Assembly (NCBI GenBank): GCA_028690155.1
Contig: JAQVBU010000014.1
Coordinates: 1 to 51,776, forward strand
Source: Alphaproteobacteria bacterium
Lineage (GTDB): Bacteria > Pseudomonadota > Alphaproteobacteria > UBA9219
Length of the DNA stretch: 51,776 nt
Reading direction: 5' to 3'
Shown: in pieces, positions 23,669 to 51,776 of the stretch
Layout of the letters: each line of letters starts with the position of its first letter
Numbering within the stretch: the stretch's first letter is position 1
Program-made: the position numbers and the translations under genes
The notes under the pieces: model-generated
The model's database searches: none
Told to the model about the DNA's origin: nothing
What the model saw: the letters and a program-made list of their open reading frames with translations, nothing else

Positions 23669-24901
23669 TTAACCGATCTTTTCCGGGAATAGTCCGGGCA
23701 TCCAGCGAGAGGCTAATTCAGCCGGAAACGCAAGGTGCAATGGCGAGCGGGGGCCCTCGGAAGTCACCACGCCGCGCTTTAAAAGAGCGGTTATGACGCG
23801 GCTTGCCTGGCGTTCTCCTATGCCAAGAATTGTCTGGACGTTCCCCCGTGGAATCTCTCCTCGATACAGCAGTGCGTCGAAGATATTGTTTGATCTGACC
23901 GGGAGCGTTCCGAGGCGAATTTCCTCTTCCGCCCATATGTCAATACGGGTGCGCAGGCGATCGGGTTGAACCAGACTTTCCATGAAAGACACTTGGTCAA
24001 TACAGGCCGTCAGGAAGAAACGCGAGAACTCGACCAAGGCTTCTTCGCTTAATGTGCCTCGTCCATCGAGATCATTCCGGCGAGACACGTCACAATTGTT
24101 CAGAAGCCTTTTATATTGATCCACATTGCGGGCCAGTCCTCTGGCAATAGACCAGACAGAACGCGTGTCGAGGGTCTTCAAAAGTACGGCGTGCGACATC
24201 AAGCGCGCCACCCGTCCGTTGCCGTCAAGGAAAGGATGGATCCACGTCAATCTGTGATGCATGGCCGCGGCGGCGATAACGGTTTCGGCCGTTCCAAGCT
24301 TTTCATAAACGTCGGAAAATCGGTTCAGAAAACGCGGAATAGCCCCAGGGCTTACGGGAATATGAAGCCCGACTTGAACGTCATTTTTCCTGAATTGTCC
24401 CGGGATAACGGGCAGTTTTTCTTTCGTATGACTGTTTTTGATCCACCGGAGCTCTTCCGGGACCTGTTCGTAGAAGCGGCGATGAATGTCGCAAATTGCC
24501 TCAACACTGGCCGGATGAGCGTCGAGACCGCCGTCATCGATCCATTTTTGAACGGAGATATGGGCGCTTGCTTCAAGCTGAAGATCCCTTTTCTTCTTGT
24601 CCCGGCTGTAGTCCTTTTTCAGAGCTCTTTCTATGTCGATGGGGTGCGTATCATGCCCTTCGATGAGATTGCTGTAATAACAGTTCATTGAACGAACGAG
24701 TTCGGCCAAAGACACAAGCATCTGGCTCGGAATGCTTCGGCAAAAGCCCGCCGATTTTTTTCCTAATTCAAGAGCGAGATCGTTCAACTCACTCCGGGCA
24801 GGATTGCTCTCGCTGACGAGCAGGGGCTCCATCAAGCCAAGAGATTCGCCCCGATCTACAGCGCCTGAAATGTCTTGTTTGATGTCTGGTTTCTTCTTCA
24901 T
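23669..24901 (-). CDS. Fic-domain AMP transferase with N-terminal inhibitory motif
   Basis: A 410-residue Fic protein. The catalytic motif is HPFLDGNGRVAR (222-233) with His222. Upstream SNLIEG (77-82) fits the inhibitory helix consensus (S/T)xxxE(G/N), so this is a self-inhibited class II Fic protein. A winged-helix-like C-terminal region (about 330-400, GEIPRGNVQTILGIGERQASRVI) is common in this subgroup. Such enzymes usually transfer AMP to a protein hydroxyl; the target is unknown. The promoter region upstream is very AT-rich. It abuts the integrase scrap and is probably acquired. Confidence 0.9.
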   Translation of the reverse strand: MKKKPDIKQDISGAVDRGESLGLMEPLLVSESNPARSELNDLALELGKKSAGFCRSIPSQMLVSLAELVRSMNCYYSNLIEGHDTHPIDIERALKKDYSRDKKKRDLQLEASAHISVQKWIDDGGLDAHPASVEAICDIHRRFYEQVPEELRWIKNSHTKEKLPVIPGQFRKNDVQVGLHIPVSPGAIPRFLNRFSDVYEKLGTAETVIAAAAMHHRLTWIHPFLDGNGRVARLMSHAVLLKTLDTRSVWSIARGLARNVDQYKRLLNNCDVSRRNDLDGRGTLSEEALVEFSRFFLTACIDQVSFMESLVQPDRLRTRIDIWAEEEIRLGTLPVRSNNIFDALLYRGEIPRGNVQTILGIGERQASRVITALLKRGVVTSEGPRSPLHLAFPAELASRWMPGLFPEKIG

Positions 24902-40028: not shown

Positions 40029-40466
40029 GTGAGCCAGTTATCAAACCTCAGAGTGCTTATTGCCGACGATCATTTTCTGATACGGCAATTTGTTCTTAAC
40101 ACACTCAAGGATTCCAAAATTGAGAATGTGGAAACGGCGGTTGATGGAAACGAAGCCATTGATTTTGTTCAGAAGGCGAAGCAGGGAGGCGTGCCCTACG
40201 ATATTGTTTTCCTTGACTGGAACATGCCAACCATTTCCGGGCTGGAGGTTTTGAGTTATTTCCGCGCCAAGTCCGAGTACGCCGATACGGCCTTTGTCAT
40301 GCTCACGGCCGAGTCCGAGCAACAGAATATTATGAAGGCGATCAAGGCCGGAGCGACGTCTTATATCGTCAAGCCCGTCTCTCCGGCCGATTTAGGCAAG
40401 AAGCTTTTTGAGATCAACGAATGGCTTAAGCGTAAGCGGCAAGCGTCCGATGGGCTTTTTGGTTAG
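40029..40466 (+). CDS. CheY-like single-domain response regulator
   Basis: A 145-residue receiver with no output domain. The acidic pair is D13-D14 in LIADDHF, the phospho-acceptor D63 in FLDWNMP, T93 in VMLTAES and K115 in IVKPVSP. The GTG at 40029 is preceded by a strong AGGAGGGA. It is followed after 8 bp by a CheX-like gene and then by a membrane CheA-like kinase, so it is probably the phosphorylation target of that kinase. WNMP and the short tail are as in chemotaxis-type CheY proteins. Confidence 0.9.
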   Translation: MSQLSNLRVLIADDHFLIRQFVLNTLKDSKIENVETAVDGNEAIDFVQKAKQGGVPYDIVFLDWNMPTISGLEVLSYFRAKSEYADTAFVMLTAESEQQNIMKAIKAGATSYIVKPVSPADLGKKLFEINEWLKRKRQASDGLFG

Positions 40467-40474
40467 GGGGGGTG

Positions 40475-40975
40475 ATGCAGGAATACAAAAAGATTTCCCT
40501 TGATGAAGCCTTTTCAAAAGATATTGGTGTGGCAATTGTTCGCTCAATGCGCGAAACCTTTGGGGTCGAGGTTCTTATCGGCACAACGGAGTGCGGTGCG
40601 GGGATCGTTTCGCTTTCTGGAGACATTTCGGGGATCATTGGACTTGTTCAAGAGCATTTGGACGGCACGCTGATTTTGAGCATGGCCTATGAAACGCTTA
40701 AGGATCTTTTGCCTCGTGTTTTAGGAAAAGAGACGGTCGTGACGCAGGAGATGGCTATCGATGCGGTCGGTGAATTGACGAATATGCTTTTCGGCCAGGT
40801 TAAGAACGATCTCAATCAAAGGATGCATCAGATAAAATTGGGGATCCCTTGTGTCGTGACCGGCAAGGGGCATTTCGTCTGCCAGTTTCATCGCGGCCGA
40901 TATATGATTGTTCCTTTTTATCTCGATGGCGCTTTGTTTCAGGTTTACGTGGCGTTGCACGACTCCCGCGATTAA
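40475..40975 (+). CDS. CheX-like phosphatase
   Basis: A 166-residue protein of the CheC/CheX/FliY fold. The core is AIDAVGELTNMLFGQVKNDL, in which E100, N103 and G107 match the ExxN phosphatase motif that dephosphorylates CheY~P. Only one copy of the motif is present, as in CheX, which acts as a dimer. No CheD is nearby. The ATG at 40475 follows AGGGGGG; a GTG sits one codon earlier. It probably resets the adjacent receiver. Confidence 0.85.
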   Translation: MQEYKKISLDEAFSKDIGVAIVRSMRETFGVEVLIGTTECGAGIVSLSGDISGIIGLVQEHLDGTLILSMAYETLKDLLPRVLGKETVVTQEMAIDAVGELTNMLFGQVKNDLNQRMHQIKLGIPCVVTGKGHFVCQFHRGRYMIVPFYLDGALFQVYVALHDSRD

Positions 40976-41014
40976 GGGTTGGGCTTGCGCCCGGGGGATA
41001 GAACGAAAGACGTT

Positions 41015-42754
41015 ATGGTGGCTAGCGCAGACGACACATTGCTTCCCTCAAAGGACGGATTGACGAACGCCGCTTCGCCTTCGGGAGAACGCGCCGTGCC
41101 CAGTGAGACCTCACAGCGTTTTGATACGCTGCATACCTCCCTTGTTGGAATGATGGCCATTGTTCTGATTCTTTTGGCGGCTGTGGCCCTGCCCATTTTC
41201 GGCTATGCGCCCGTCACGGACAAGGGAAGCTTTTTTATCATCACGGCGGCGACGTTCGGCGGCATCGGGTATCTGTGCTTTCTGAACTACGCCGTGTACA
41301 AGCTGGTGTGCGATCATGATCGACTGAACGAAGTTTTGATGGACAGCTTGGGGCAGGGGTTCTTGTCGTTCGGTCATGACGGTCTGTGCGACAGCGTGTA
41401 TTCGAATGCGTGCTTGGATTTGTTGCAGACGTCTCCCGCAGGCAAGAACATCATGGATGTTCTTCGCATTCCCGAGGAGGGGCGCGAGGATTTCAAGGGA
41501 TGGCTCGATATTCTTTTTATGCCCGACCACGCGTTGGGATTTTCGGATGTCATCAATTTTTTGCCGCAGTTTTTCCCCCATGAAAAGAAGCGCCGGATCA
41601 CGCTTATGTACCGTCCGATTTATACAAAAGGGCGGATGCTGTCGCGGGTTGTGTTGATCGCGACGGATACGACAGAGGAATTTGAAGCCCAAGAGCTGGC
41701 CAAGAGGCGGCAGGATTATGCCGATATGATTTGCCGCATCTTCCGCGAGCGCAATCAGTTTTTGGCGACGATCACGCATGTGCGCTCTTTTCTTGAAAGG
41801 GCGGCTGAGCCTGTCTCGCGGGAGAATTCGGTCAGTTTATTGCGGTTGCTTCATACGCTCAAGGCGGCCGTCAAACATTTCCATTTGGCCGATTTGGCCA
41901 GTACGGTTCACAGCTTGGAAACCGAACTGCGAAGCGACTCTATAGAATCCGAAGAGGCTTTCAGGAACGCGTTGGAGGCGGGGCGTCAGCTGATCGACAA
42001 ACAACTGAACGTCGTGCTTGATACGATCAGGGAGCTTATCGGCCAAGATTACGAAGGTCGGGGCAATACGCGTGAGATTGAGGAAAGCGCCCTTTATAAT
42101 TTTGCCCTTGTTATGAGCGTTTCCGGGGTTAATCAGGATGTTGTCGATCATTATTTGCGCTTTATCGTTGCCGTCCCTATTCAGGACTGTTTCAGGCAGT
42201 TTGAGCGGGAGCTTTTGGATTTGGCCGAGATTACAGGCAAGCAAATCAAGCCGGTCCGGTTTTCAGGCTCCAATCCACCCGTTTTGTTTAGGGAATATCA
42301 GGGGCTAATTTTTTCATTGACCCATGTGTCCCGCAACATCATCGATCATGGGATCGAACCTTCGGTCACGCGCTTAGCGCGAGGAAAAGATCCGGCAGGG
42401 CAGATTTCGGTCGAGGCCAATATCGTTCGCGATAAGGCTGAAGGAAAAGATTGGCTTTACCTGATCATTTCGGATGATGGGAATGGGATCGACGTTGCGC
42501 AGGTAAGAGAAAGGTTGGCGCTTTTGGAGCCGGAAGAGCGGTGGAGCGAGAAAGACGACCAGACCGTGATGCAAAGCATTTTTTCTTTTGGGGTTTCAAC
42601 GCGCGAGGAGGTGACGGAAACATCGGGGCGCGGCGTTGGGATGAACGTTGTGAAACGCGAGGTCGAAAACCTTAACGGGGAAATCCATGTATCGTCGGAG
42701 CTTTGTGTCGGCACACGCTTCGAAATCAAAGTTCCTTATGTTCTCTCGATTTAG
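41015..42754 (+). CDS. membrane-anchored CheA-like histidine kinase (Hpt + CheA-type ATPase, no CheW domain)
   Basis: A 579-residue kinase of unusual layout. A polar start is followed by two membrane helices (about 43-65 and 71-95), a PAS-like region (about 105-220, SLGQGFLSFG), an Hpt-like helix bundle with H280 in LLHTLKAAVKHF, and a CheA-type ATPase. The N box is HVSRNIIDHGIEP (437-449), the G1 box ISDDGNGID, and SFGVSTREEVTETSGRGVGM (G2) is almost the CheA consensus. There is no P5/CheW-like domain at the C-terminus and the usual Hpt HxxKG is HTLKA. The ATG at 41015 is my choice; a TTG at 40979 is possible. It is probably the source of phosphate for the adjacent receiver. Confidence 0.85.
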   Translation: MVASADDTLLPSKDGLTNAASPSGERAVPSETSQRFDTLHTSLVGMMAIVLILLAAVALPIFGYAPVTDKGSFFIITAATFGGIGYLCFLNYAVYKLVCDHDRLNEVLMDSLGQGFLSFGHDGLCDSVYSNACLDLLQTSPAGKNIMDVLRIPEEGREDFKGWLDILFMPDHALGFSDVINFLPQFFPHEKKRRITLMYRPIYTKGRMLSRVVLIATDTTEEFEAQELAKRRQDYADMICRIFRERNQFLATITHVRSFLERAAEPVSRENSVSLLRLLHTLKAAVKHFHLADLASTVHSLETELRSDSIESEEAFRNALEAGRQLIDKQLNVVLDTIRELIGQDYEGRGNTREIEESALYNFALVMSVSGVNQDVVDHYLRFIVAVPIQDCFRQFERELLDLAEITGKQIKPVRFSGSNPPVLFREYQGLIFSLTHVSRNIIDHGIEPSVTRLARGKDPAGQISVEANIVRDKAEGKDWLYLIISDDGNGIDVAQVRERLALLEPEERWSEKDDQTVMQSIFSFGVSTREEVTETSGRGVGMNVVKREVENLNGEIHVSSELCVGTRFEIKVPYVLSI

Positions 42755-42848: not shown

Positions 42849-42876
42849 TTGACTCTCCAGGCTTACTTCTTATATT
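42849..42876 (+). promoter_or_regulatory. promoter of rpsM (TTGACT-16-TATATT)
   Basis: TTGACT (42849-42854) and TATATT (42871-42876) are spaced by 16 bp, 113 bp before the rpsM start. It gives the alpha operon its own promoter, in line with its separation from the S10/spc genes. Confidence 0.65.
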
Positions 42877-42988
42877 AGCCCACCTTAGCCCCGGAGTTGG
42901 GGATGGGACTTTTGTCGTTGAACTCCGTTTTTGGCACGTGAAGACATGTCGGCCAAACGGTGTTTTTGTTGTTTTTTTGGAGAACAAA

Positions 42989-43369
42989 GTGGCTCGCATT
43001 GCAGGCGTCAACATTCCGGCAGCAAAACCGTTGCATATTGCGTTACGTTACATCTATGGCATTGGGCCGACCAATGCGCTGGAGGTTTGTGCGCACGTTG
43101 GTATCGATCCCACCAAGCGGGTCAATCAGCTGACGGAAGGAGAAATTCTTAAGATTCGCGAAGACATTGATAAGAACTACAAGGTCGAGGGTGATTTGCG
43201 CCGCGAAGTTTCGATCAATGTTAAGCGTTTGATGGACTTGGGTTGCTATCGCGGCCTTCGCCATCGCAAAGGGCTTCCCGTGCGCGGGCAGCGTACGCAT
43301 ACGAATGCGCGGACGCGTAAAGGGAAAGCCAAGCCGATTGCCGGCAAGAAGATCGCGACGAAGAAGTAA
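42989..43369 (+). CDS. rpsM: 30S ribosomal protein S13
   Basis: A 126-residue S13. [29 protein letters not shown] at the start in pattern, [17 protein letters not shown] and the basic tail TNARTRKGK are diagnostic. The GTG start at 42989 has TTGGAGAA upstream; the frame is open further upstream, but those residues are not S13. Usually adk and secY precede it; here a CheA-like gene does. Confidence 0.96.
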
Positions 43370-46028: not shown

Positions 46029-46175
46029 GTCTTTGAAAAAGAAATTAGTCCTTTTCCTTGAAGGTTCGATCGGATAGCATCCCGCCAGGATTTTAACCGA
46101 TATTGCTTTTAGGCGATCGAACAAGGCTAGGGCACAGGTATAGTTAAAATTGAGCCCTCGCGTATGAGGTTTGAC

Positions 46176-46634
46176 ATGACGAAGGACGATGTTGCCGAGG
46201 TTATAAAAACGCATGGAACGGAGCGTACGAATCTTCTTCCCGTTCTTCAGGATGTTGCGGCGACGCACCGATTTTTGACAGAGGAAGATCTGGTTCGTGT
46301 TGCCCGCGCTTTTAAGATATCGGCGGCCGAAGTTTATAGCGTCGCCTCTTTTTATTCTCTCTTGGAAACGCAGCCTCGCGGCCGGTTTGTCATTCGCGTA
46401 TGCCGCACCATTTCGTGCAGCATGTCCGGTAAAGGCAATATTTTGACTAAACTGAAAGAGATTTTGGGCATCGACCTCGGTGAGACGACGCCGGATAAGC
46501 GATTCTCGCTTCTTGAAACGAATTGCATGGGCTGGTGCGCCGAAGGACCGTCGATGCTTATCAACGACACGGTTTACTCACATCTCACACCCGAAAAGGT
46601 CGTCGAGATCATCAAGGAGTACCGCGAACGTTGA
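46176..46634 (+). CDS. nuoE: NuoE-like [2Fe-2S] subunit of NAD-linked hydrogenase
   Basis: A 152-residue thioredoxin-fold [2Fe-2S] protein. Four Cys in VCRTISC and NCMGWC give the CxxxxC/CxxxC ligand set. EVYSVASFYSLL is the conserved helical region. In HydABC-type hydrogenases this is HydC, which relays electrons next to the NuoF-like flavoprotein. The ATG at 46176 has GAGG six bases upstream; an ATG at 46164 is also possible. Only nuoE and nuoF homologues are here, with no other complex I genes, so it belongs to the hydrogenase rather than to complex I. Confidence 0.9.
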   Translation: MTKDDVAEVIKTHGTERTNLLPVLQDVAATHRFLTEEDLVRVARAFKISAAEVYSVASFYSLLETQPRGRFVIRVCRTISCSMSGKGNILTKLKEILGIDLGETTPDKRFSLLETNCMGWCAEGPSMLINDTVYSHLTPEKVVEIIKEYRER

Positions 46635-46683
46635 GCGGCAAAGCTCTCTTCTGGAAAGAGTACTAACAAGGAAAGGCTTTTTC

Positions 46684-47901
46684 ATGTCTCAGGATGCCGA
46701 AAAAAGCACGGCGAAGCTTTCGAAGGTCGAAAAGAAACTTAATCTTCTGAAAAAGCGGGCGCATCTTATTTTTAGAAATATCGATTGCGTCAAGCTTTTT
46801 AACCGTATCCTTAAAAAGACCCCAGACGAAATTTTGGCAACGATCACCGAATCCGGGCTTCGCGGCCGCGGCGGCGCAGGGTTTCCGACAGGAATGAAGT
46901 GGAAAGCCGCGTTGGAGGCTCCGGGCGCGGTCAAGTACGTCATCTGCAACGCCGATGAAGGCGAGCCGGGGACGTTCAAGGATCGGGTGATTTTGGAACG
47001 CCAACCTGACAAAATCATTGTCGGTATGGCGACGTGCGCGTATGTGACCAAGGCTACGGAAGGCTATATCTATATGCGCGGCGAGTACAATTTCATGAGC
47101 AAGGAAATCAAGGCTTGCTGTGAAAAGTGGAACGATCTTTTTGAAAAGAAGGACTTTCCTTTCCGTGTGTCTTTGCGGTTGGGAAGCGGCGCATACATCT
47201 GCGGAGAGGAAACGGCCCTGATCGAGTCAATGTCAGGCAATCGCGGCGAACCGCGCTTGCGGCCTCCGTTCCCGGTGAGCGAAGGGTTTAACGACATGCC
47301 GACCGTGGTCAACAATGTCGAGACGCTGGCCTATGTGACCATGATTATGGACGATGGGTTGGATTTCTTCAAATCCGTCGCCAAAGACGACTCGATGGGC
47401 GGCAAGGTCTTTTCGGTTTCCGGCGATGCGGCCATTAAGGGGGTGTTTGAGCTTCCTTTGGGTATGACGGTTCAGGAGTTTGTCGATATTTTCGGCGACG
47501 GCGATACCAAGGCCGTTCAGGTTGGCGGTTTCTCGGGGCTGTGCGTGCCGAGAAAGCATTTTGCTACGACGATTATCGGCTATCGCGGCGTGCAGACTGG
47601 TGGATCGATGATCCTTTATAACAGTACGCGTTCGATGTACCTCGTGCTCAAGAATTATTTGGAGTTTTTCCAGGAAGAATCTTGCGGCCAATGCGCACCA
47701 TGCCGCATCGGATGTCAGCAGCTTCTGCTCGGCATCGAGGCGATGCGTCAGGGCACGCGGCCGTTATCGCATATCGATAAATTGCGCGAGCTTGTTAACG
47801 TGATGGGCGTGGCGTCGAAGTGCAAACTCGGGATGTCCTTGGCGAATCCCTTTAACTCGATCACAGAACATTTCTTCGAGGAAATTTGCTCGAAGTGGTG
47901 A
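46684..47901 (+). CDS. nuoF: NuoF-like FMN/NADH-binding [4Fe-4S] subunit of hydrogenase
   Basis: A 405-residue flavoprotein. The FMN site is LRGRGGAGFPTGMKW (59-73), followed by CNADEGEPGTFKDR. SGAYICGEETALIES and the N3 cluster Cys CGQCAPCRIGC (334, 337, 340) with C380 downstream complete the NuoF pattern. It lacks the N-terminal thioredoxin domain and C-terminal ferredoxin of the ~600-residue HydB proteins, so it is the short NuoF type. It should pass electrons between NAD(H) and the hydrogenase. It lies 49 bp after the NuoE-like gene and 45 bp before hydA. Confidence 0.92.
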   Translation: MSQDAEKSTAKLSKVEKKLNLLKKRAHLIFRNIDCVKLFNRILKKTPDEILATITESGLRGRGGAGFPTGMKWKAALEAPGAVKYVICNADEGEPGTFKDRVILERQPDKIIVGMATCAYVTKATEGYIYMRGEYNFMSKEIKACCEKWNDLFEKKDFPFRVSLRLGSGAYICGEETALIESMSGNRGEPRLRPPFPVSEGFNDMPTVVNNVETLAYVTMIMDDGLDFFKSVAKDDSMGGKVFSVSGDAAIKGVFELPLGMTVQEFVDIFGDGDTKAVQVGGFSGLCVPRKHFATTIIGYRGVQTGGSMILYNSTRSMYLVLKNYLEFFQEESCGQCAPCRIGCQQLLLGIEAMRQGTRPLSHIDKLRELVNVMGVASKCKLGMSLANPFNSITEHFFEEICSKW

Positions 47902-47946
47902 GGAAGCGGTTCGGAAGAGTTTAAGCGTTTTTAATGTGGAGCATCC

Positions 47947-49728
47947 ATGGAAAAAGTATCTCTTACCATTAACGGGATCAACGTCGAGGTTCGTAAGGGC
48001 TCGACCCTCCTTGAGGCCGCTAAGAAGGCCGGTATTCGCATTCCGACCCTTTGCCATCACCCCGACCTTGTTCCCGCAGGCAACTGTCGTTTGTGTGTTG
48101 TCGAGCAGAAGGGGGCTCCGTTCCTTTTGGCGTCGTGCACCACCAAGGCGGCTGACGGTATGGAGATCGAGACCAACACGCATCGCGTTCGCGAAGCGCG
48201 CCGCGTTATTTTGGAGCTTTTGTTGGCGGAACATAACGCCGATTGCATTTCCTGTCCGGCGAGCGGCAAGTGTCAGTTGCAGAGCTTGGCGCACGAGTAT
48301 TTTGTCCAGAAGACCGATTTCATGAATATTGCGGACAAGAGTCCCATTGATGATTCATCGCCGTCGATCGTCAAGGACGACAGCAAGTGCATTCGGTGTT
48401 TGCGGTGCGTGCGGACGTGTTCAGAACTGATGGGCGTTTCGGCGCTGGTCAGCGCGCACAAGGGACGCTACACGAAAGTCGAAACGCTTTTGGACAAGCC
48501 GCTTCAATACGCCGTGTGCACGATGTGCGGCCAGTGCGTATCGCGCTGTCCGACGGGCGCGTTGGTCGAGAAGAATTACGTCAACGACGTATGGCGCGCG
48601 ATCAGCGATCCCGAAAAATTCGTCGTTGTTCAGACGGCCCCTTCCGTTCGCGTCGGATTGGGCGAGATGTTGAATATGGCTCCCGGAAGCATCGTTACGG
48701 GCAAAATGGCGACGGCGTTGCGCCAGCTCGGCTTCGACGCCGTTCTGGACACGAATTTCTCAGCCGACTTGACGATTATGGAAGAAGGGCACGAGTTGCT
48801 CCAGCGGTTGACAAAAGCGCTGCGCGATAAGGAAAAGATTTCTTTTCCCATGATGACGTCGTGCTGCCCGGCGTGGGTCAAGTTCATGGAGCACGAATAC
48901 CCCGATCAGTTGGAGCACATTTCGTCCTGCAAATCGCCGCAGCAGATGCTGGGCGCGCTTATCAAGACATATTATGCCCAAAAGCGGGGCATTGATCCGT
49001 CGAAGATCGTTTCCGTCTCGATCATGCCTTGTACGGCGAAGAAATTCGAGGCCTCGCGGCTTGAGATGAAGAGCAGCGGCTATACGGACGTCGATTACGT
49101 TCTGACCACGCGCGAGCTCGGCCATATGATTCGCCAATCGGGCATTTGGTTCGACGAGTTGGAGGAGAGTACATTCGACAGCCCCATGGGCGAAGGAACC
49201 GGCGCGGCCGTGATCTTTGGCGCGTCGGGCGGTGTGATGGAAGCGGCGTTGCGTACCGTATATGAGGTCGTGACGGGCCGCGAGGTTCCGTTCGAGAACC
49301 TGAACATCACGCCTTTGCGCGGGACGGACGGCGTTCGCGCCGCCTCGATCCGGATCGATAAGCCGTTGCCGGACTGGTCTTTCCTCGAAGGCGTCGAGGT
49401 CAATGTGGCCATCGCGCACGGTTTGGCCAACGCGCGCAAGCTTATGGACGATGTCGAGAAGGGTTTGTCGCCGTATCACTTTATCGAGGTTATGGCGTGT
49501 CCGAATGGTTGTATCGGTGGCGGCGGTCAGCCCATGCCGACCTCGCCCGAGATCCGTCGCAAGCGGACGGCGGCCATTTACGAGGCGGATTCGAAGCTTC
49601 CGCGCAGGAAGTCTCATGAGAACTCGGAAGTTCTTGCCCTTTACAAGGATTTCCTGACCGAGCCGTTGGGACACCGTTCGCACGAACTTCTGCATACACA
49701 CTATACGAAACGCGACGATTTACCTTGA
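47947..49728 (+). CDS. hydA: [FeFe]-hydrogenase catalytic subunit
   Basis: A 593-residue [FeFe] hydrogenase with a modular N-terminus. The ferredoxin-type [2Fe-2S] site uses C36, C47, C50 and C64, the His-ligated [4Fe-4S] site H96, C100, C103 and C109, and two 4Fe clusters CIRCLRCVRTC (148-158) and CTMCGQCVSRC (191-201). The H-cluster motifs are intact: L1 TSCCPAW (304), L2 MPCTAKKFE (360), L3 MACPNGCIGGGGQP (516). A small-subunit-like C-terminus follows (HELLHTHY). With the NuoE- and NuoF-like genes it forms a soluble, probably NAD(H)-linked hydrogenase. Maturases HydE, HydF and HydG are not in the window. Confidence 0.97.
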   Translation: MEKVSLTINGINVEVRKGSTLLEAAKKAGIRIPTLCHHPDLVPAGNCRLCVVEQKGAPFLLASCTTKAADGMEIETNTHRVREARRVILELLLAEHNADCISCPASGKCQLQSLAHEYFVQKTDFMNIADKSPIDDSSPSIVKDDSKCIRCLRCVRTCSELMGVSALVSAHKGRYTKVETLLDKPLQYAVCTMCGQCVSRCPTGALVEKNYVNDVWRAISDPEKFVVVQTAPSVRVGLGEMLNMAPGSIVTGKMATALRQLGFDAVLDTNFSADLTIMEEGHELLQRLTKALRDKEKISFPMMTSCCPAWVKFMEHEYPDQLEHISSCKSPQQMLGALIKTYYAQKRGIDPSKIVSVSIMPCTAKKFEASRLEMKSSGYTDVDYVLTTRELGHMIRQSGIWFDELEESTFDSPMGEGTGAAVIFGASGGVMEAALRTVYEVVTGREVPFENLNITPLRGTDGVRAASIRIDKPLPDWSFLEGVEVNVAIAHGLANARKLMDDVEKGLSPYHFIEVMACPNGCIGGGGQPMPTSPEIRRKRTAAIYEADSKLPRRKSHENSEVLALYKDFLTEPLGHRSHELLHTHYTKRDDLP

Positions 49729-49815: not shown

Positions 49816-51776
49816 ATGTGCCGCGCGATAGGGGCTCGCCTCGTTTTTTCGTTTCTTTTTGCCGCCGTGTTTTGCTTTGCCTTTTCTGAAAAGACGCGGG
49901 CAGCGGTGCTTGTTCTCAATCAAGGCGGTCAGCAGACTTTTTTTGATTGGCAAGAACGGTGGGGGCCCATCGCTTTCTCGACGGAGGACGACCCCGTCAT
50001 TCCCTCAAAGAGGCTCCAACCTAAGGCGGATATCAAATCTGTGGTCGAAGCATGCGCGCCATCGGCGGACGATCTTTCCCCAATACGGGCCTATGATATC
50101 GATTTCGATCAGGACGGGTCAGCCGATTTTGTCATCGATGCGTCCGAGTTCTTTACAGGCCGCTCGAACGGATGTGCCGTCGAACCCTGCCGGGATGGCG
50201 AAGGCTGTTATCTCAGCATCTACCGATTTTTGGGGGCGACCAATATCGTTTCTGGGCCGTCTTTCGCCTCTAAAGACGGCGAGGATGAGGAGGGCCCCGC
50301 CTTCTGTCCACAAACGGCCGAGCAGAATGTCGCATGTGAGCAGACTTGTCCGGCGACGGAAAAGAATTGCCCCAGCTTTTTTGAATACCGCACGAAACGC
50401 GTCTATAACGCCCGCGTCAAGGGCTGGACGTTTATCAGCGCGGAGGACTTCGGAAAATTTGCGGTCAAAAAGCCATACCGGATTTTGAACCGGCGTCCGG
50501 TGTTGGCCGTCACGTTGAGCGAGCCGTCGTGCTATCGGGCCGAATTGGCGGCGAACAACAATGAATGCATCAAGTATTATCAGTATAGCGGAGACCTCTT
50601 CGTCGATCTTTTCGACTATATAAGCCCGGACGAAAACGAGAATACGAGGGACGCCTTTACGTACAAGCCTTATGCCCGGAACGACGTTCATTATGCCCGA
50701 GGGACGACTGTGATGGGGGTGGGGGGCGCGCGCGGTTTTGGCCACAGGCTTGGCAGCGGCGCGACCCTTGACCTACAATTTCCCTTTTTTACGCGGATGC
50801 TTCCTGGCGGAGAGATACGACCCCCAGCCTTTGCCGTTTTCCATATCGTCAACGCATCGACGAAAGACTATTTTATCCCGGTCGGTCCTGTCGACGATGT
50901 CGCGTTCAACGTCTTTATGAACAATCCTCCCGAAGGCATCACGATTTCGTCCGACACGGCGAAGTTTCTTCGATTCACCGATTGGGTGGGCGATACCGAC
51001 TGCGACGCGTTTCAGGTTCCTTACGGACAGACAAAGGAACTCGCTGCCGAGCGTTTCTGCCAACGCGCAACGGGTACCTATGCGTCCTGTCAGGAATGTA
51101 TCGCGGCCAAAGTTCCGGGCTATGAAAACGGATGTTGGATGACAAAGCGCTGTGTCGGAACGGATTGCGTCATAAACGACAGCGCCTTTCTCGACGGTGC
51201 GGGTTTATCTTCCTATGTGGGGACGACGACACGTTTGCAGGATTGTTACGACAGATCCGAATTTTGGACGCGGTATGCCGCGTACGGCAAGGATTCGCCG
51301 CCGGATTGGTCCCTATGGTGCCAAAATCATTTTATGTCCCTTTGTAACGCAAGAGAGACTGCTACGGTAAGCCCCGTCATAAAAAGCGGGCCGCCGGTTA
51401 TTGCGTTGCCGAATGGTGGGAGCAAAAGGCTCAATGCCGTTAGAGTCGGCGATATGGTCCTCGGTTATTTAAAATTCGATGGCGATACGATAGCGGTTCG
51501 CGTGACGCAAATCATGAGAACAGGAAAGCGATCGGCGATCAGGATCAACGGCCGGATTACGTTGAGCCCGGATCAGAACGTTTTTCTGCGCAAGGGGAGG
51601 ACGGTCCGGGCGAAAGATCTTAAACCCGGCGACATTCTGATCATGGGCAACAAGCAAAGCTTAGTTGTCGATACGCTGGCGACGGTTCCGGAGAAGAGCG
51701 AAGGAATCGCCCTAAATCTCGATGGGGGTGTGGGCTATATCGTCGACGATGTGAGACTTTCGTCGAAGCGGGGTGC
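49816..51776 (+). CDS. secreted Cys-rich protein with a Hint-like C-terminal domain (open at window end)
   Basis: An open frame of 653 codons with no stop before the window edge, starting ATG 49816. A signal peptide (ARLVFSFLFAAVFCFAFSEK, cleavage near TRA-AV) is followed by a long Cys-rich extracytoplasmic region with FDQDGSADFVID, CEQTCPATEKNC and about 20 Cys. From about residue 525 a Hint (hedgehog/intein) pattern appears: VRVGDMVLGY, TQIMRTGKRSAI, TLSPDQNVFL, AKDLKPGDIL, and GYIVDDV. The expected Cys1 before the domain is absent and the TxxH His is Gln, so splicing activity looks lost. It is 87 bp after hydA. Function unknown; a surface or polymorphic-toxin-like protein is possible. Confidence 0.75.
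   Translation, partial: MCRAIGARLVFSFLFAAVFCFAFSEKTRAAVLVLNQGGQQTFFDWQERWGPIAFSTEDDPVIPSKRLQPKADIKSVVEACAPSADDLSPIRAYDIDFDQDGSADFVIDASEFFTGRSNGCAVEPCRDGEGCYLSIYRFLGATNIVSGPSFASKDGEDEEGPAFCPQTAEQNVACEQTCPATEKNCPSFFEYRTKRVYNARVKGWTFISAEDFGKFAVKKPYRILNRRPVLAVTLSEPSCYRAELAANNNECIKYYQYSGDLFVDLFDYISPDENENTRDAFTYKPYARNDVHYARGTTVMGVGGARGFGHRLGSGATLDLQFPFFTRMLPGGEIRPPAFAVFHIVNASTKDYFIPVGPVDDVAFNVFMNNPPEGITISSDTAKFLRFTDWVGDTDCDAFQVPYGQTKELAAERFCQRATGTYASCQECIAAKVPGYENGCWMTKRCVGTDCVINDSAFLDGAGLSSYVGTTTRLQDCYDRSEFWTRYAAYGKDSPPDWSLWCQNHFMSLCNARETATVSPVIKSGPPVIALPNGGSKRLNAVRVGDMVLGYLKFDGDTIAVRVTQIMRTGKRSAIRINGRITLSPDQNVFLRKGRTVRAKDLKPGDILIMGNKQSLVVDTLATVPEKSEGIALNLDGGVGYIVDDVRLSSKRG

Follow-up and report, generated by a model that had tools for sequence, protein, structure and literature searches.

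CheA is held to need receptor arrays, to which it is tied through its P5 domain and CheW. In the window, that is, the whole 51,776-nucleotide stretch of DNA analysed here, three consecutive plus-strand genes at 40029–42754 encode a receiver, a CheX-type protein and a kinase with a CheA-type ATPase. Can such parts form a signalling pathway of their own, in which no array takes part? The initial annotation proposed as much, describing a self-contained sensor kinase, receiver and CheX made from chemotaxis parts, with no P5/CheW coupling, and the P5 and neighbourhood checks described below support it. We consider it likely that the locus encodes a complete, array-independent module, in which a sensor would control phosphorylation of H280 in the kinase, the phosphoryl group would be transferred to D63 of the receiver, and CheX would remove it.

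The three genes and their products

The receiver gene runs from a GTG start at 40029 to a stop at 40466; 8 bases separate it from the CheX gene (ATG at 40475), and 39 bases separate the latter from the kinase gene (ATG at 41015). Purine-rich runs resembling ribosome-binding sites can be seen by eye 5' of the receiver and CheX starts. An alternative TTG start upstream of the kinase ATG is possible; the ATG at 41015 matches the lengths in relatives. The upstream neighbour is divergent and encodes a DsbA-like thioredoxin (Pfam Thioredoxin_4), with an SMC-family ATPase beyond it. Downstream of the kinase are rpsM, rpsK, rpoA and rplQ, open reading frames named by reading. The first of these, rpsM (S13), is the usual downstream neighbour of the module (42983–43369, plus strand); its start was placed by homology, as the blastp matches mostly begin at about residue 41–49 of the listed open reading frame. 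Between module and rpsM, an alpha-operon leader is found on the plus strand at 42917–43021 (Rfam RF00140, 44.3 bits with a gathering threshold of 38), and there is a promoter-like match at 42849, 3' of the kinase gene. These two features suggest that a separate transcription unit probably begins beyond the kinase gene.

The first gene (40029–40466, plus strand) encodes, as initially annotated, a lone receiver with D63 (codon 40215–40217). The protein has 145 residues and is of the CheY type (Pfam Response_reg, 2.9e-26), and D13, D14, D63, T93, Y112 and K115 are all present and invariant in 28 aligned rows. It thus has the DD, D, T and K residue set of CheY, but does not reach the CheY equivalog score: the best NCBIfam model is CheY PRK10610, at 94.1 bits, under the equivalog cut-off of 189.

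The second gene (40475–40975, plus strand) encodes a predicted CheX-type phosphatase of 166 residues. The CheX domain is recognised by Pfam (1.8e-15, 57.2 bits, cut-off 27), and solved CheX-type chains are matched as well, the best being 3h2d_A (2.3e-15). The ExxN motif that had been read from the sequence, E100 (codon 40772–40774) and N103 (40781–40783), is invariant in 29 aligned rows; among 11 diverse CheX copies the E..N pair is kept in 10, and the remaining one, at the distant locus L162, has D instead of E. Domain and motif are common to the window protein and the CheX family. The Thermotogales CheX equivalog of NCBIfam gives 41.9 of 280 bits for the window protein, and its cut-off is not reached. 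According to a survey of CheAs, CheX dephosphorylates CheY, and CheC/CheX are fused to CheA in Leptospirae (PMC10782961). A CheX-family protein of undetermined role, VC0377, turns up in a Vibrio cholerae motility suppressor (PMC8789113). The window CheX differs from the family in being paired with a dedicated sensor kinase, not with a chemotaxis operon.

The third gene (41015–42754, plus strand) encodes a kinase of 579 residues, for which the proposed parts were two N-terminal membrane helices, a PAS-like region, an Hpt-like histidine and a CheA-style ATPase, with no P5. Each part is borne out, the PAS-like region by fold where Pfam is silent. By hydropathy and in an AlphaFold2 model, two N-terminal helices span residues 31–62 and 70–112 (41105–41350), the second continuing as a coil; the hydrophobic runs themselves cover residues 36–69 and 72–91, and the second is weak by hydropathy. 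Runs and modelled helices together support anchoring of the kinase in the membrane. A PAS-fold sensor domain follows at residues 114–219 (41354–41671), assigned by fold, since the Pfam search of the kinase found no PAS. Its fold matches heme-PAS structures among others; C125 and C133 are each kept in 27 of 28 orthologues, and all 12 of a diverse set of family kinases have the two PAS cysteines.

The Hpt four-helix domain occupies residues 246–342 (41750–42040), with H280 (codon 41852–41854) invariant in 28 aligned sequences. The Pfam Hpt match is barely above the cut-off (1.7e-5, 25.4 bits, cut-off 24.6), and by fold, unrelated four-helix bundles score nearly as high. No HisKA match is found by Pfam in the kinase at E values up to 1. 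The protein ends with an ATPase of CheA P4 type at residues 389–579 (42179–42751; Pfam HATPase_c, 2.9e-14). Neither Pfam nor a P5 profile built here detects a P5/CheW domain in it. Pfam also finds no P3-type dimerization domain (H-kinase_dim) in the kinase, while a canonical CheA from the genus scores 50.9 bits. The hhalign alignment spans only residues 387–579, with some structure rows extending back to residue 348–355.

Conservation in the order and relation to CheA

A kinase search over 115 genomes (the own genome and 114 relatives) gives 30 loci, and in 29 of these, own included, receiver, CheX and kinase follow in this order on one strand; the other, L029, begins at a contig end. That these three genes recur in a fixed order argues against a chance arrangement. 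Counted from the search rows, 32 of the order's 34 genomes, again own included, have the kinase, although it is split over two contigs in G021, partial in G023 and G033, and interrupted by TAG in G012, where the module may thus be broken. It is missing from G020 (69% complete) and from G022 (80% complete), in which only a PAS-region match at 42% is found. Mean column identity falls from receiver (77%) to CheX (64%) to kinase (58%).

The surroundings of the module also recur. S13 lies downstream in 20 of the 30 loci, for which the flank is at most 1.5 kb, and in 9 of 13 wider loci (L043–L055); the four in which it was not seen come from G004, G007, G012 and G013. In two loci from other families of the order, secY and adk lie upstream of the module, immediately so in L047 and with an MFS gene on the opposite strand in between in L049. 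Whether homologues sit in ordinary chemotaxis operons had been raised as a check, and the loci read do not: they are mostly beside ribosomal genes.

Is the kinase then a CheA? The two share the P4 ATPase (HATPase_c, CheA type) and a P1/Hpt domain with a phosphoacceptor histidine. Unlike CheA, the window kinase is without a P5/CheW domain and without a recognised P3, it has its own membrane and PAS sensor in front, and there is no CheW or MCP in its operon. This holds for the family: all 23 family kinases compared end 0–16 residues after the P4 match, whereas in 28 CheA-type comparison kinases 76–500 residues follow, and the P5 profile matches 0 of 23 family kinases vs 40 of 41 comparison CheAs. 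Of 13,673 CheAs covered by one survey, 100% are reported to contain a CheW domain (PMC10782961). By that definition, since none is found in the window kinase, the protein is not a CheA, even though, judging from its domains, it is predicted to work like one.

Orthodox two-component systems are the other point of comparison. A membrane sensor with PAS in cis and one receiver in the operon are common to these and to the module. In the module, however, the phosphoacceptor is an Hpt domain, not HisKA, the ATPase is CheA-type, the phosphatase has a gene of its own and the receiver carries no output domain. The module is thus two-component signalling with CheA-type catalysis, and is not categorically new. 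No description of an operon of receiver, CheX and P5-less kinase was found in the open-licence literature.

The kinase could instead be what remains of an ordinary CheA after loss of P5, with the ordinary chemotaxis pathway still acting on it or receiving its output; it might, for instance, phosphorylate an ordinary CheY or be under MCP control through another adaptor. The clearly CheA-type P4 fits such an origin, as do the three MCPs left in the own genome and the CheW matches in 27 of the order's 34 genomes; given these matches, an ordinary pathway exists in most of the order, and the module receiver could there serve something else. The P4 trees, in which the program flagged long branches, speak against it. 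In the first, the 23 family kinases and 28 comparison CheAs are split by a 100/100 branch. A larger tree adds five P5-less kinases of other classes and has 41 comparison CheAs; the latter form one group (99/94), as does the window family (96/90); L162 joins the window side, and the other four added kinases join the CheA side. With four HisKA kinases as outgroup, the support is weak: the CheA branch falls to 68/2, and the root is left unsettled. Within this sample, the P4 groupings indicate that P5 loss is not scattered among CheAs. The order of membrane helices, PAS, Hpt and P4 also differs from that of a CheA minus P5, and the kinase has its own receiver and CheX, with no che operon at the loci read. 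We therefore regard descent from, and service to, an ordinary pathway as quite improbable, and retain the array-independent module as the preferred reading.

The trees also allow a bolder proposal, namely that the P5-less kinases are an old, separate offshoot of the CheA catalytic lineage, one that at no time took part in receptor arrays, possibly a CheA from before P5 and CheW. We think this unlikely. If true, such signalling would stand between chemosensory arrays and orthodox two-component systems as a third form of wiring, its sensor in cis and CheX its built-in reset. More generally, a P5-less family bears on the origin of chemosensory arrays, and surveys that treat the CheW domain as the core of CheA would miss such kinases, one annotated relative being simply an 'Hpt domain-containing protein'. 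In an array-free family, CheA chemistry, reset by CheX and coupling to a sensor are open to study in three proteins.

Paralogous and distant modules

Lower-scoring matches within the order lead to P5-less paralogous kinases at six loci (L056–L061). Receiver and CheX are both near the kinase in five of the six, the CheX matches of L057 and L060 being under the Pfam cut-off; the sixth, L058, is on a 3.3-kb contig and has a CheX fragment alone. The sensors vary. The kinases of L056, L058 and L059 have no N-terminal hydrophobic run, and those of L057, L060 and L061 have two, separated by 50 to 150 residues, a spacing that would suit an extracytoplasmic sensor. In two paralogous modules, L056 and L100, a FIST protein lies between CheX and kinase. 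At the latter locus, from an alphaproteobacterium of another family, four genes are consecutive: receiver, CheX, FIST and a kinase that lacks hydrophobic runs.

A class-wide profile search of 385 genomes, in which at most three candidates per genome were scored, gives long matches in six: five of the order and the L100 genome. A search of 398 genomes of the phylum gives long matches in three genomes outside the class. At L162, CheX, a receiver and a multi-PAS kinase, whose Hpt is under the cut-off, occur together. At L164, a kinase with 4HB_MCP, HAMP, PAS (under the cut-off), Hpt and P4 is followed 1–3 kb downstream by a CheX-domain protein and a receiver. L163 has a similar kinase; a receiver lies 2.7 kb from it, and no CheX was found there. 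Like P5-less kinases are present on plasmid records of Ideonella, Caballeronia and Burkholderia, the L164 kinase sharing up to 93% identity with Burkholderia plasmid records.

As in the window kinase, Hpt and a CheA-type P4 without a CheW domain are combined in these Burkholderiales proteins, and L164 also has the CheX-domain protein and receiver nearby. They differ in their chemoreceptor-like sensor and in a P4 that groups apart from the window clade, and in Ideonella, unlike the window module, a short MCP-annotated gene adjoins. Taken together, nearly all members of the order that were examined carry the predicted trio, as do a few more distant bacteria, and the module, as far as its genes tell, is a multi-copy family with varied sensors in more than one lineage.

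Several further observations were made at these loci. On the Ideonella dechloratans plasmid (L165), the kinase is the one annotated as above, and the MCP-annotated short gene follows it; the kinases of L164, L165 and L166 (a Caballeronia plasmid) have a CheA-type P4 and no P5 match. Inspection by eye shows a receiver-like stretch at the start of the L164 CheX-type protein, and also of a similar Caballeronia frame. At L101, a receiver and CheX pair lies beside an ordinary HisKA hybrid kinase. Another HisKA hybrid kinase (L062:7762–10080; Pfam HisKA, HATPase_c and receiver) has a PAS region 42% identical to that of the module kinase, and similar PAS-region matches occur in G021, G022 and G024; the PAS region thus seems common to CheA-type and ordinary kinases.

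Proposed mechanism, input and output

The chemical steps proposed here follow the established chemistry of the CheA P1/P4, CheY and CheX families, together with the invariance of the residues concerned. A signal would reach the PAS domain, directly or via the membrane helices, and the change in PAS would alter the coil leading into the Hpt domain. The state of the coil would set how well the P4 ATPase phosphorylates H280 in the dimer. The phosphoryl group would then pass from H280 to D63 of the partner receiver, and E100 and N103 of CheX would remove it, setting the lifetime of the signal. The receiver would act by protein binding, with the flagellar motor switch as the first candidate target.

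The ordinary chemotaxis genes of the host matter here. The own genome is 99.4% complete and has matches to MCPsignal (3), FlhA (1), FliM (1) and CheX (1), and none to CheW or CheR, in searches whose controls were each positive in 7 of 14 named genomes. A single-protein search finds no second CheA-type kinase in it. The absence of CheW, MCP and CheR noted initially thus stands for the cluster and, as to MCP, does not extend to the genome. The missing CheW and CheR could partly reflect an assembly gap, which is conceivable since a neighbour of the che cluster in one relative is also without a match in the own genome. Two of the own-genome MCPs (L067 and L068) have Cache and four-helix sensors, despite CheW, CheR and an ordinary CheA not being found; either these are orphan receptors or an assembly gap explains the missing partners.

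Single-domain receivers can act as phosphate sinks. CheX and the receiver might accordingly be a sink or timer for ordinary chemotaxis, with the kinase a minor modulator, and the reported action of CheX on CheY (PMC10782961) is in keeping with this. In the own genome, however, the module persists where CheW, CheR and another CheA-type kinase are not found, and so there would be no pathway to drain; we hold this explanation to be very improbable, and continue with a module that signals on its own account.

For the motor as its target, the lead comes from flagellar genes. Each of the 34 genomes examined in the order has FlhA. A FliM search of 12 genomes found the gene in 10, and all 10 copies keep LSQ(N/E/S)EID(S/G)LL, with the CheY-binding motif LSQxEID. 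Two near-complete genomes with no CheW match are among those that keep it. G012 (99% complete) has FlhA and FliM, with no CheW match and no MCP match. The motor may therefore still receive signals in genomes without ordinary che genes, with the module receiver as a candidate source, and a flagellar-motor output is plausible on these grounds. In E. coli FliM, the motif is at the very N-terminus; in the FliM genes examined here (L134–L143, the own being L139), LSQxEIDxLL is at position 34–71 of the open frame, behind an extension, and the starts are unsettled.

The module may also be as described and have an output other than motility, its receiver binding another target, such as one in the control of c-di-GMP, attachment, stress or respiration, and we give this somewhat less than an even chance. 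The FIST-linked sister modules hint at a gas or redox input, and the PAS fold, with its matches to heme-PAS structures and its two cysteines in 12 of 12 family kinases, points the same way. Against this, no effector gene stood out at the loci read, where the neighbours scanned are mostly housekeeping genes (secY, adk, rpsM, an MFS transporter). With FlhA in every genome of the order, co-occurrence cannot separate motility from the module.

As to the input, redox or gas is our first guess, made with low confidence by analogy, from the conserved PAS cysteines and the FIST proteins of two sister modules. FIST-containing NosP proteins are nitric-oxide sensors partnered with histidine kinases, and FIST proteins are likewise part of the L056 and L100 modules. 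The window module differs from NosP systems in having no FIST gene and a kinase that appears to be membrane bound.

Other genes in the window were noted in passing. A Fic/DOC-domain protein is encoded on the minus strand at 23672–24901, beside a threonine-synthase-like gene. An NADH-linked [FeFe]-hydrogenase operon (2Fe-2S thioredoxin-like, NuoF-like and iron-only hydrogenase genes) is found at 46164–49728, and after the hydrogenase gene comes a 209-residue open frame without a Pfam match (49859–50488). Such a hydrogenase operon in an alphaproteobacterium suggests a fermentative or anaerobic host.
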